Below, in pieces: positions 24,992-63,091 of a DNA stretch of 64,000 bases. The DNA comes from Chthoniobacterales bacterium (GTDB lineage: Bacteria; Verrucomicrobiota; Verrucomicrobiia; Chthoniobacterales; JAATET01): the NCBI GenBank assembly GCA_015655545.1, contig JAATET010000031.1, positions 62,001 to 126,000 on the forward strand, read 5' to 3'. Position 1 is the stretch's first letter. Each line of letters starts with the position of its first letter. The notes under the pieces were generated by a model that had not been told where the DNA came from, did no database searches, and saw nothing but the letters and a program-made list of their open reading frames with translations. A program made the position numbers and the translations under genes.

Positions 24992-26038
24992 ATGCTCACG
25001 AAGGTTTTTTCGGCTGCGATCCGGGGCGTGGACGCGCTGGAGGTGGAAATCGAGGTCAATAGCGGCCACGGCGATCCGCAAATCGTGGTCGTGGGATTGC
25101 CCGATGCCTCGGTGCGGGAAAGTCGCGATCGCGTGACGACCGCGATCTCCAACAGCGGCTTCCGCTGGCCGCGTCAGCGCACGACGGTGAACCTCGCTCC
25201 GGCAGACTTGAAAAAAGAAGGCCCGAGCTTCGACCTGCCCATCGCCATCGGGATGATCACCGTTGCCGAGGATGCCAGCGTGCCGCGGCTCGAGCGCTGC
25301 ATGATCGCCGGCGAACTCGGGCTCAACGGCGAAGTGCGCCCGATCAAAGGTGCTCTTTCCATCGCCATTGAAGCGCGCCGGAAAAAGAAGAAGGCGCTCA
25401 TCGTCCCGGCTGCGAATGCCGCCGAAGCCGCCGTAGTGGAGGGCATCGAAGTCTTCGGTGTGAAAAGCCTGCGCGAGGCATTCGAATTCCTCGCCAGACA
25501 GCGCGAACTCGAGCCCGCCGTCTCGCAGTTCGGCAGCTGGGAACAGGATGCGGAAGACCCGGATTTTTCGGAAGTGAAAGGCCAGGAACAGGTGAAGCGC
25601 GCCCTTGAGGTCGCGGTCGCCGGGAATCACGCGCTTTTGTTGATCGGTCCGCCTGGTTCCGGAAAATCGATGCTCTCGAAACGCATCCCGACCATCATGC
25701 CGCCGATCACGCTGGAAGAAGCGATCGAGACCACGAAGATTCACAGCGTTGCCGGGGTGCTTTCCGGTGAAGGGTTTTGCACCCGGCGGCCTTTCAGGTC
25801 GCCGCACCACACGATCTCCGACATCGGCCTCATCGGCGGCTCGGCAAATCCCGCTCCGGGCGAGCTGAGCATGGCGCACCATGGCGTGCTTTTCCTCGAC
25901 GAGCTGCCGGAGTTCCGGCGTTCGACATTGGAAGTCCTGCGCCAGCCGCTCGAAAACAGAGTCGTCCAGATCAGCCGTGCGGCTGGCACGGTATCTTTCC
26001 CGGCCAGCGTCATGTTGATCGCGGCCATGAATCCCTGC
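24992..26038 (+). pseudogene. comM: comM/yifB, 5' part, interrupted by the genomic island
   Basis: The first 349 codons of a ComM/YifB AAA+ ATPase, a helicase that promotes branch migration of donor DNA in natural transformation in species where it has been studied. The N-terminal ChlI-like domain is complete (GLPDASVRESRDRV, FDLPIAIGM), followed by Walker A (LIGPPGSGKSMLSKRI) and Walker B (GVLFLDELPEF). Similarity stops at AAMNPC, exactly where ComM proteins read NPC-x-CGY. The frame then runs into the island and ends at 26,344 with unrelated residues. The missing part is at 62,612-63,091; joining them gives an uninterrupted 508-residue protein of normal length. Confidence 0.95.
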
Positions 26039-27641
26039 CCGCATGGCTTCCATCATCGGTGCGACCCTCTTCGTTCGCACCAACACCGGAATCCCTGCAA
26101 TCAAGGATTCCAGAGTTGGTGCTGCCGGAATCAGCAAAAAACATGGGGTTCATCTCAAAATCCACGATTGAGCAGCCATCAAAAGACACTGAACCAAACA
26201 TTGCCTGCAGAAGTCGCCGCTTTTCCTGTCGGTCCAAACGTTTTCGGAAAAACCGTGCGCCGCGTGCGATGTGTTCCACCAATCGCATTCCGGCTTGAGC
26301 GGCGGCTCGGCGGCGCTCGGCGGTTTTCACAGTCTTTTCGATAGCACTTTGTTCGCGGGCCAACTCCTGCATCCGGTCTTTGACGTAAGAAATATCCACG
26401 GAACCCAACTCTACCGCATTGAGCAAGTTCGCTCGTTTTTTGGTCACTTCCTTGAGGAGCCGTTGGAAATTTGCATTCGAACCGCGGTCCTCTGCCGCAT
26501 CTTCCATACTTGCGACCATGCGCTCCACAACCTCTGGACTGGTAAGGTGCTCGGATACGAACGAAAATATCGTTTCCTCCATATCTTGCTTTCGCACACT
26601 CGGCTGCTGGCACGACGAACCATTGCGCTTGTGTAAATAATAATTTCGGTTGCAGATGTAGTAACCCTGCTTTTTCCCATCGCGTCGGAGTCCCGACGTG
26701 CCATAGAGGCGTCCGCCACAGTGGGCGCAAATCGCGATACCGGACAAAACATTAACCTCGGCAGTCTTCCGAACAGAGCGCCAGTGAGCATTGCTTTTGG
26801 CGAGGAGTGCCTGCACGCGCTCAAAACGTTCGTCAGACACAGCACCTACTTCAAAAATCCGAACGTCGATAATCTCCTCCTCTGGACGAGGAACCTTACG
26901 GCGGTCGGCCTGCCGTCCATCCTCGCTGTCATATTTTTGTGGACCACGCTTCTGGTCATAAACCCGCCTGCCGATGTAAGTGCGGTTCCGTAAAAGATTA
27001 TGGAGGGTGCGGGGTGCGATATCGACCCTCCGTCCGATTTCTGACAGATTGCTGAGTCCCTCTTCGTCGATAATCCGGAACGCCTCCCTCACCGCTTCCA
27101 CCTCTGGCGTGTAACTCCATGTGTTGGACGGCCTGTCGTAGGCGACGCCCCTTGGAAGCGTGATTTTCGCGGAAGGACACTTGCCTTGCTTGCGCTTTTG
27201 CTCCTTGGCCCCTTGAGTTTTCTCTAGGATTTTTCGGCGGTCTAGCCCTGCATAGGAGGCAAGTATTTGCATGAAAAAAGCCCCCTCTGAAGAGCGCAGA
27301 TCATGATTTGCGCCTGCGGTATAAAGGGTCGCACCTGCATCGCGGAACACGTCAATAATGTCGAAATCGGAAAGACGGTCAGGTCGAAAGAGGCGGTCCA
27401 AATCCGACACTACTACTCCGGCAATCTGGTAGGTTCGAATTTCAGTAAGAAGACGCTGAAACACGGGGGATGCTTTCACGTTCGACCCCGAAACGTCGAT
27501 GATGTCGTCAACGCGGATCAGGTCGAGGTTGTCCCGAAGCACAATTGCCTCGATTGCCGCGCGCTGCCGTGGAATTCCGGCCCGATCTTCACCGCTTTGC
27601 TCTTCGGTGCTCACTCGCACCAGGCCGACAACCCTCTTCAT
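26010..27641 (-). CDS. large serine recombinase (island integrase)
   Basis: A 543-residue serine integrase. The N-terminal resolvase domain has the nucleophilic Ser in VGLVRVSTEEQ (residue 11) and the conserved VSDLDRLFR and FRDAGATLYT. The recombinase domain spans about 165-270 (TWSYTPEVEAVREAFRIID, RTYIGRRVYD). A zinc-ribbon region (GIAICAHCGGRLYG ... YYICNR ... SSCQQPSV) and a coiled coil (about 385-470) follow, as usual in this class. The last nine residues are encoded by comM DNA across attL, so this C-terminus exists only when the island is integrated. In the excised circle the frame would continue into 62,601-62,217. The start overlaps a 61-residue gene as ATGA. Confidence 0.95.
   Translation of the reverse strand: MKRVVGLVRVSTEEQSGEDRAGIPRQRAAIEAIVLRDNLDLIRVDDIIDVSGSNVKASPVFQRLLTEIRTYQIAGVVVSDLDRLFRPDRLSDFDIIDVFRDAGATLYTAGANHDLRSSEGAFFMQILASYAGLDRRKILEKTQGAKEQKRKQGKCPSAKITLPRGVAYDRPSNTWSYTPEVEAVREAFRIIDEEGLSNLSEIGRRVDIAPRTLHNLLRNRTYIGRRVYDQKRGPQKYDSEDGRQADRRKVPRPEEEIIDVRIFEVGAVSDERFERVQALLAKSNAHWRSVRKTAEVNVLSGIAICAHCGGRLYGTSGLRRDGKKQGYYICNRNYYLHKRNGSSCQQPSVRKQDMEETIFSFVSEHLTSPEVVERMVASMEDAAEDRGSNANFQRLLKEVTKKRANLLNAVELGSVDISYVKDRMQELAREQSAIEKTVKTAERRRAAAQAGMRLVEHIARGARFFRKRLDRQEKRRLLQAMFGSVSFDGCSIVDFEMNPMFFADSGSTNSGILDCRDSGVGANEEGRTDDGSHAGRDSWPRST
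26029..26038 (+). other. left attachment core (attL)
   Basis: GAATCCCTGC at the point where comM similarity ends. The chromosome lies to the left and the island to the right. The identical 10 bp occurs at the right boundary. The strand exchange must lie within these shared bases, but the exact crossover dinucleotide cannot be fixed from one sequence. Confidence 0.88.
26029..26098 (+). repeat. 70-bp att repeat, left copy
   Basis: This 70-bp block starts and ends with GAATCCCTGC and matches 62,542-62,611 at 55 of 70 positions by my alignment. Shared sub-blocks are GGCTTCC, TCGGTGCGACC and CGCACCAACA. In the predicted circular form the two blocks would lie in tandem and share one core copy. On the minus strand both encode a repeated peptide, DSGVGANEEGRTDDGSHAGR in this copy. 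Confidence 0.85.
26077..26122. repeat. 46-bp dyad inside the left end
   Basis: GCACCAAC-n3-GGAATCC is followed after 10 bp by GGATTCC-n3-GTTGGTGC, so 15 of 18 positions per arm are perfectly symmetrical. The same half-site (CGCACCAAC then GAATCC) recurs in direct orientation at about 62,529 and 62,589. The size and symmetry suit a dimeric recombinase binding site. Confidence 0.6.
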
Positions 27642-27823
27642 TCGATGTCGTCTACCAATTTTTTGGCGATAGTGTAGACAATTTCGCGGTCACCGCTCTT
27701 TACCGCCTCACGAAGCTCGTTAATCAGCGCATCTTCCCGCCGTCCCGCTTCCAAGAGCAATCGGATGGCCTCGCTCGTGGACGGGCGAGGGACAATTGGC
27801 TTTGTGGAAGGTTTGGGTCTCAA
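27638..27823 (-). CDS. small protein coupled to the recombinase
   Basis: A 61-residue protein whose TGA overlaps the recombinase ATG, which implies translational coupling. It starts at TTG (27,823) with no strong ribosome-binding site. The Pro/Lys-rich N-terminus is followed by helical TSEAIRLLLEAGRREDALI and KKLVDDIE. No family recognised. A recombination accessory or directionality factor is possible, from position alone. Confidence 0.6.
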   Translation of the reverse strand: MRPKPSTKPIVPRPSTSEAIRLLLEAGRREDALINELREAVKSGDREIVYTIAKKLVDDIE

Positions 27824-62601: not shown

Positions 62602-62611
62602 GAATCCCTGC
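62542..62611 (+). repeat. 70-bp att repeat, right copy
   Basis: Pairs with 26,029-26,098 (55 of 70 positions identical by my alignment). It starts with GAATCCGTGC and ends with the core GAATCCCTGC. A further half unit (CGCACCAAC then GAATCC) lies immediately upstream at 62,529, so the repeat array in the circle would have at least three direct half-units and one inverted. Confidence 0.85.
62602..62611 (+). other. right attachment core (attR)
   Basis: GAATCCCTGC where the island ends and comM resumes with TCCTGCGGCTATTTTGGC, encoding the rest of the NPC-S-CGYFG motif. Identical to the attL core. Confidence 0.88.
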
Positions 62612-63091
62612 TCCTGCGGCTATTTTGGCGACCCAAAGCGCGAATGCCGCTGTTCGCCGCGGCAGGTGGAGAATTATCGCAATCGCATCTCGGGACCGCT
62701 TCTGGATCGCATCGATATCCACGTCGAAACGCCGGCGGTGGAATTCAAGGATTTAAACAGCGACGAGCGCGCCGAGCCTTCCGCCGCAATTCGTGAAAGG
62801 GTGATGGCGGCCCGCGAAAAACAAGCGGAGCGATTCGCCTCCAGCCGCAAGGGCCGGACGAACGCCGAGATGTCCAATGCCCAGCTCAAGACTCACTGCA
62901 GGCTCGACCCCGCGAGCCAGGAAATGCTCCGCCTCGCGATGAGCGAGCTGCAACTCAGCGCGCGCGCCTACGACCGCATCCTCAAAGTCTCGCGCACCAT
63001 CGCCGACCTCGCCGATTCGCCGGCTATCCGCATCGAACACCTCGCCGAGGCCATTCAATACCGCACGCTCGACCGGAATTTGTGGCGATGA
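62612..63091 (+). pseudogene. comM: comM/yifB, 3' part
   Basis: The last 160 codons (stop included) of ComM, beginning SCGYFGDPKRECRCSP, continuing through the AAA+ lid (YRNRISGPLLDRIDIHVE) and the C-terminal Mg-chelatase domain (LSARAYDRILKVSRTIADL, HLAEAIQYRTLDRNLW). It has no start codon of its own in context, so it should be silent while the island is present. Its exact fit to the 5' part at 24,992-26,038 shows the gene was intact before insertion and could be restored by excision. Confidence 0.95.

Follow-up and report, generated by a model that had tools for sequence, protein, structure and literature searches.

In the 64,000-nucleotide stretch of a Chthoniobacterales genome analysed here (the window; C119:62001-126000, from a genome with 134 contigs, a total of 3.0 Mb and 84% completeness), the host gene comM is interrupted by a 36.6-kb island. 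We estimate at about 80% the probability that the attachment site of the free island (attP) lies within the island's own large serine recombinase gene, such that integration parts the enzyme from a C-terminal zinc tail and excision would rejoin the two into a predicted protein of 665 residues. Joining the flanks restores comM, with a 508-residue ComM as its product, and the G+C content per 2-kb step is 0.50-0.57 in the island versus 0.60-0.67 in the left flank. The recombinase carries the Resolvase, Recombinase and zinc beta ribbon domains that define large serine recombinases (Pfam).

The recombinase frame across the island ends

As the first-pass annotation had reported, the recombinase open reading frame (ORF; 27641-26010, minus strand) crosses the left junction (attL) and enters antisense comM, so that nine comM-encoded residues replace the lost tail. 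When the two island ends are joined, the frame continues in the same phase as a single ORF of 665 codons plus stop, terminating at 62217. This reconstruction from the integrated ends also supports the annotation's wider claim that attP lies inside the recombinase gene and that excision would rebuild a longer, zinc-tailed enzyme.

A search with the joined-form protein retrieved 94 proteins from the best 7992 candidates by shared words, and the islands of the relatives displayed two layouts. In the terminal layout, found in the window, G186 and G391, and in G393 with one end only, the 3' end of the recombinase gene lies in attL. In the internal layout, the recombinase is longer (open frames of 589-718 codons), the tail is fused to it and the gene lies inside the island; in all six islands of this type with both ends read, the island ends are away from the recombinase. 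The annotation had named a different core position in related islands as an outcome that would make the in-frame continuation a matter of chance; such a difference was absent among the three terminal islands, which share position and phase, but was found in the six internal ones.

The joined ends of G186 and G391 are also in frame, with tails of 79 and 95 residues. Counted from the core of the right junction (attR) in the phase of the recombinase, 130 codons are open in the window, 77 in G186 and 94 in G391, and the same-phase values at the six internal-type islands are 14, 8, 11, 22, 20 and 20 (any-phase maximum, 55). A hidden Markov model (HMM) built from 28 tails fused in other recombinases was run against 2744 six-frame ORFs drawn from the window, from the island of G186 and from the flanked ends of G391, and its matches were the three attR-side ORFs (G391, 7.5e-13; G186, 1.9e-10; window, 1e-9). 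Chance continuation of the frame must be weighed here, because a random place and frame within the islands stayed open for 79-131 codons in 11-15% of trials, and frame openness by itself is weak evidence. Homologous tails nevertheless stand in the same phase at three island ends, and the next-best of the 2744 ORFs reached only E 0.021; chance is thus a very improbable explanation. The shared phase in all three terminal islands, together with the homology to fused tails, is strong evidence.

The three islands differ in most other respects. Their recombinases are only 36-39% identical to one another, and the only other item shared among ORFs of at least 80 codons was one nuclease-like ORF in the window and G186 (G391 was compared over 8.9 kb); therefore, the window, G186 and G391 islands look like separate acquisitions. 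The G186 ends lie 28.8 kb apart on one contig, G781 matches G391 in its contig coordinates, and further genome rounds yielded no additional terminal-type island with both ends. In trees of 76 rows built by a quick method with no bootstrap (P0033, P0041 and P0043 left out), the tailed rows required two changes, forming clades of 22 and 3, and still two when body columns alone were used.

The C-termini of the family point the same way. Among 62 family proteins (P0001-P0063 minus the fragment P0033), 36, the window's own included, end in the pattern [DG]-S-[WSL]-[PRLQ]-[PRLQ]-[PRQLS]-[AT]-end expected from antisense comM, a pattern derived from codons after the C-termini had been inspected; it occurred in 0 of 31 distant recombinases and at 1 of 32,438 internal positions. 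Five further proteins (P0006, P0011, P0045, P0051 and P0053) fit via an earlier stop or one change, and 13 of the 62 carry a C-terminal CxxC...CxxC tail. The short end appears to be a signature of integration into comM, with the host gene supplying end and stop, most of the 36 being known from the protein only. The early-stop variant in P0045 belongs to a recombinase named for an uncultured Desulfosarcina, and the viral contig of G393 (L011) combines a comM-type short end with a comM piece.

The tail has the CxxC...CxxC knuckle of endonuclease VII and HNH zinc-knuckle proteins, and its homology to the fused tails of relatives upholds the zinc knuckle that the annotation had placed in the rejoined protein. 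All three severed tails matched the same five PHROG families (E 2.2e-6 to 0.014), resembling the knuckle regions of endonuclease VII and HNH families over about 40-56 positions of profiles of 130-271 positions. No Pfam family scored above its cut-off for the tails, and no Pfam nuclease family matched them even at E <= 10, so that no catalytic nuclease part was found in this search. An AlphaFold model of P0026, a natural long form (29 sequences; mean predicted local distance difference test score, pLDDT, 83; predicted template modelling score 0.47), gave pLDDT values of 42 and 59 at residues 521-540, 89 at 561-580, 66 at 581-590 and 87-91 at 591-610. In the model, the tail is a mostly confident domain behind a disordered linker, and by alignment the terminal-type attP falls in this predicted linker between recombinase body and zinc domain. 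The fold matches of the model were integrases of the SPbeta, phiC31, Bxb1 and A118 types, with low whole-chain TM-scores.

The annotation had further proposed that excision reconnects an ATGA-coupled downstream gene. The ORF at 61702-62220 is present, but the operon content is not conserved: no homologue of it was found in the other loci compared, a 118-amino-acid ORF with its ATG 7 nt past the tail stop lies behind the G391 tail, and behind the G186 tail there is no ATG ORF within 120 nt. A gene therefore follows the tail directly in two of the three terminal islands, with no content common to them. In G186 (L042), the tail stop is directly followed by a stretch resembling a tRNA 3' half, from a CAT anticodon region to CCA; ARAGORN found no whole tRNA behind the tail, and the stretch is perhaps the scar of an older attachment site.

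Attachment sites and target gene

The shared sequence GAATCCCTGC is present at 26029-26038 and 62602-62611, and the annotation had taken it for the crossover core. We scanned nine comM islands (18 ends), in register with comM, for a dyad of 22+2+22 positions. The codon after NPC reads CC at 17 of the 18 ends, the exception being the right end of the window (TC), and CC was the best dyad centre in eight of the nine islands; in the ninth, G388, the core scored 12/22 and offset -6 scored 13. The 2-bp core at the dyad centre that characterizes large serine recombinases is thus present in eight of nine islands, with TC as the right core of the window. The dyad symmetry centres on the adjacent CC rather than on GAATCCCTGC itself, and the crossover is most likely the adjoining CC at 26039-26040 and 62612-62613. 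This shift leaves frame and length unchanged and makes a single residue of the joined protein (G or S) dependent on the cut. Either a base of the TC core was altered after integration, or the exchange point lies a few bases away.

Three tandem 46-bp attP-like dyads with a 60-bp period occur in the window, with cores CG, CC and AA and matches at 14, 14 and 18 of 22 positions. A 20-residue peptide repeat that the annotation had noted in the joined protein arises because of these DNA dyads and so carries no weight as independent protein evidence. The two extra dyads (26077-26122 and 62530-62575) lie on either side of the working site at intervals of 60 bp, and their cores do not match; decoy or accessory binding is a conceivable role. 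When the G186 island was compared with itself, no match between its two ends appeared; the other islands were not systematically searched for such repeats.

comM was split near residue 354 into two parts in all nine distinct cellular genomes carrying a close relative of the recombinase. This survey comprised 13 genomes or records, 12 with a comM match; G013 and G390, which have the same comM loci, were counted as one, and the genomes of L003 and L006 as well as G1055, G1130 and G1186 were left out. The comM parts lie on separate contigs in G388, G013 and G391. comM is intact in G392, where the recombinase is 27% identical; only the left comM part is present in viral contig G393, and G394 gave no comM match. 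A later genome check found comM in two parts in G723 and in several pieces in G521. Among the matches listed, eight of the nine genome records with a recombinase relative are titled as Verrucomicrobiota taxa. Empty comM sites of the same genus read NPCPCG and NPCKCG (two loci; a third same-genus locus yielded no site).

Two side observations concern the same target. Extra comM 3' fragments occur in G521 (L152, L156, L162, L163), L006 and G441 (L161), which suggests repeated insertion into comM or islands bearing a comM end. In G178 (contig C2:443578-653712), the two pieces of comM are separated by 209 kb, within which lie two oppositely directed tailed recombinases, perhaps as stacked islands.

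Possible function of the split and alternative readings

The split is real, recurs in three islands and seems to be under constraint. All three tails, although cut off in the integrated state, have retained an open frame and the four cysteines of the knuckle; therefore, the rejoined protein must matter at times. An in-frame relic was rejected as an account of the continuation, on the conservation of cysteines and frame at the three island ends. We tentatively propose, at a little short of even odds, that this bacterial family of serine recombinases uses its own attP as a coding linker, and that integration and excision act as a directionality switch, the enzyme alternating between an integrating form with the zinc tail and a resident form that ends in comM. 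The long form would be made from the circle and likely performs attP x attB integration, attB being the site in comM. The CC crossover would then exchange the zinc tail for about nine residues and a stop codon read from comM, which would leave the short form as the sole version made in the chromosome. Excision would fall to this short form, probably aided by helper factors, and would make both genes whole again. That the two forms differ in activity, with the DNA exchange swapping in the enzyme form suited to the new state, is possible, though we would not yet bet on it.

Several results weigh against an attP within the recombinase gene or against its proposed use. Tail-directed protein searches (292 and 25 candidates, none at E <= 0.001) yielded no joined tail, and neither a circular form nor a read across the joined ends was seen in the material searched: tblastn of plasmid and phage records gave no match for P0016 at E <= 1e-20 and, for P0045 at 1e-8, nothing but 33 distant phage integrases, each below 60% identity, and the viral contigs (one scan covering the best 80 of 210) gave a single comM-adjacent short form, G393, with comM at one end. 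The annotation had held that free forms always stopping at the core would speak against it; the searches gave no free form with an internal attP, whether stopping at the core or running on past it. In G393, the tail HMM reached a best E of 0.002 among 859 ORFs, mid-contig, and gave no convincing tail. Eight of the 62 family proteins (P0003, P0008, P0042, P0047, P0052, P0058, P0060 and P0063) have neither end type, P0008 being possibly incomplete. P0003 (697 amino acids, 52% identical) has a DSAFGD motif resembling the attP-encoded linker, followed by a C-terminus of another kind, without a knuckle; it is possibly a free form or a user of another target. The G391 ends lie on different contigs and their pairing was inferred, as for the internal-type islands G388 and G013. 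The 22-row tailed clade has its attP elsewhere in the six islands read. Finally, the TC at attR versus the CC at attL may impair precise excision of the window copy.

A switch is not the sole way to read a split gene. attP might simply lie in a linker that tolerates either C-terminus, while an ordinary recombination directionality factor (RDF) controls the reaction. Serine integrases are controlled by separate RDFs, and the fold and sequence matches include entries titled integrase-RDF complex, one being SPbeta YokA with YotN. Because members of the sister clade reside in comM with the tail still fused, an island need not lose the tail in order to stay integrated, and the split may be a neutral by-product; the four cysteines and open frame kept in all three severed tails argue for a use of the tail, and we regard neutrality as possible but lean against it. 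It is unlikely, by our estimate, that the short form is inactive and that the island can exit only when an intact recombinase acts in trans, a proposal made for archaeal SSV-type integrases (PMC8371274, in the excerpted text). This precedent and the mismatched end cores of the window would fit such a suicidal design, but the split spares the Resolvase, Recombinase and zinc-ribbon domains and the body that aligns with tailed relatives, whereas SSV integrases are cut through.

More doubtful still is a tail expressed on its own, as a small protein encoded at the right island end, with the shared frame as a relic of gene fusion. An ATG stands just past the core in G186 and G391, but the window junction has none, and in relatives the tail and the recombinase form one fused protein.

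Known systems and further features of the island

Mx8 Int is a tyrosine recombinase. Integration of Mx8 (and Mx9) gives the integrase gene a new 3' end and changes the specificity of the enzyme (PMC6070905, in the excerpted account). The window, as reconstructed from its integrated ends, likewise has attP inside the integrase coding sequence and acquires a new 3' end on integration, but enzyme class and target differ; the window enzyme has serine recombinase domains and no claim to the tyrosine recombinase class, and therefore works like Mx8 Int without being a member of its group. New with respect to Mx8 are the removable zinc domain shared by several islands and the stop supplied by comM. 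In the excerpts available of the SSV-type archaeal integrases, the recombination site likewise lies within the gene, which is split on integration, and self-disrupting recombinases are called exclusively archaeal (PMC8371274). These are tyrosine recombinases that leave two pseudogene halves, whereas the bacterial serine recombinase of the window keeps its core domains; its Pfam domains stand together in the short form, with no separation of the catalytic domain from the rest. In mycobacteriophage BPs, according to the part of the report considered, attP lies in the repressor gene and integration shortens the C-terminus of the protein, removing a part with a degradation tag (PMC4557955). The likeness is an attP in a gene and a C-terminal change on integration; the altered gene is a repressor there and the recombinase in the window.

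We take the magnesium chelatase-like gene targeted by other large serine recombinases, phage WO sr1 among them, to belong to the comM family. According to excerpts of the two reports, such a gene is a favoured target of large serine recombinases (PMC10083194) and most phage WO sr1 recombinases likewise target it (PMC9203015), the same target as that of the window recombinase. The excerpted sr1 account makes no mention of an attP inside the recombinase frame or of a split tail (PMC9203015). Within the excerpted open-licence literature, including PMC6109161, we found no serine recombinase with attP in its own frame, which is not proof of absence.

For serine integrases, which are in wide use as tools, a central question is what determines the direction of the reaction. 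In three islands that differ in recombinase and predicted attachment site, each state of the DNA would come with its own C-terminal form of the one enzyme, so that direct tests could show what the C-terminus contributes to the control of direction. The arrangement suggests that self-rewritten integrase genes are not confined to tyrosine recombinases. It also carries a warning: annotation of a serine integrase from an integrated island can miss a domain that the mobile form would carry, the comM-type end being found in 36 of the 62 family proteins.

Table 1. Positions of features at the two island ends, in window coordinates
Feature	Position	Strand	Basis
Host comM, 5' part to predicted crossover	24992..26040	+	Joined flanks give a 508-residue ComM; comM split in relatives' genomes
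Host comM, 3' part	62612..63091	+	Joined flanks; comM in two parts in relatives
Large serine recombinase, integrated (short) form, 543 amino acids	26010..27641	-	Pfam Resolvase 3.8e-22, Zn_ribbon_recom 3.3e-10, Recombinase 1.8e-7
Recombinase ORF 3' end and stop codon from antisense comM, nine residues including core codon	26010..26038	-	Direct reading; comM-antisense pattern in 36/62 family C-termini
attL core dinucleotide CC, predicted crossover	26039..26040	.	Best dyad centre in 8/9 islands
attP half-site at left island end	26041..26062	.	14/22 dyad match to 62590-62611
Extra attP-like dyad, AA core	26077..26122	.	18/22 dyad match, 60-bp register
ATGA-overlapping ORF, 172 amino acids, no known family	61702..62220	-	Direct reading; no Pfam or PHROG match at limits used; no homologue in other loci
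Severed C-terminal recombinase tail, 130 codons open from core	62217..62611	-	In frame once joined; codon-position G+C resembles recombinase body
Zinc knuckle CxxC...CxxC of tail	62232..62381	-	Fused-tail HMM E 1e-9; PHROG endonuclease VII family 2.2e-6
Extra attP-like dyad, CG core	62530..62575	.	14/22 dyad match
attP half-site at right island end	62590..62611	.	14/22 dyad match to 26041-26062
attR core, TC in place of CC	62612..62613	.	Sole end of 18 without CC

Other genes of the island were noted in passing. At 36795-38330 there is another large serine recombinase (Resolvase, Recombinase), with two ParB/RepB-like genes after it, and a tyrosine recombinase stands beside a divergent LexA-like gene at 30348-31955; the island may be composite. 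A cluster at 44479-48743 comprises genes for a protein kinase, a PP2C phosphatase, a VWA protein and an ion channel.

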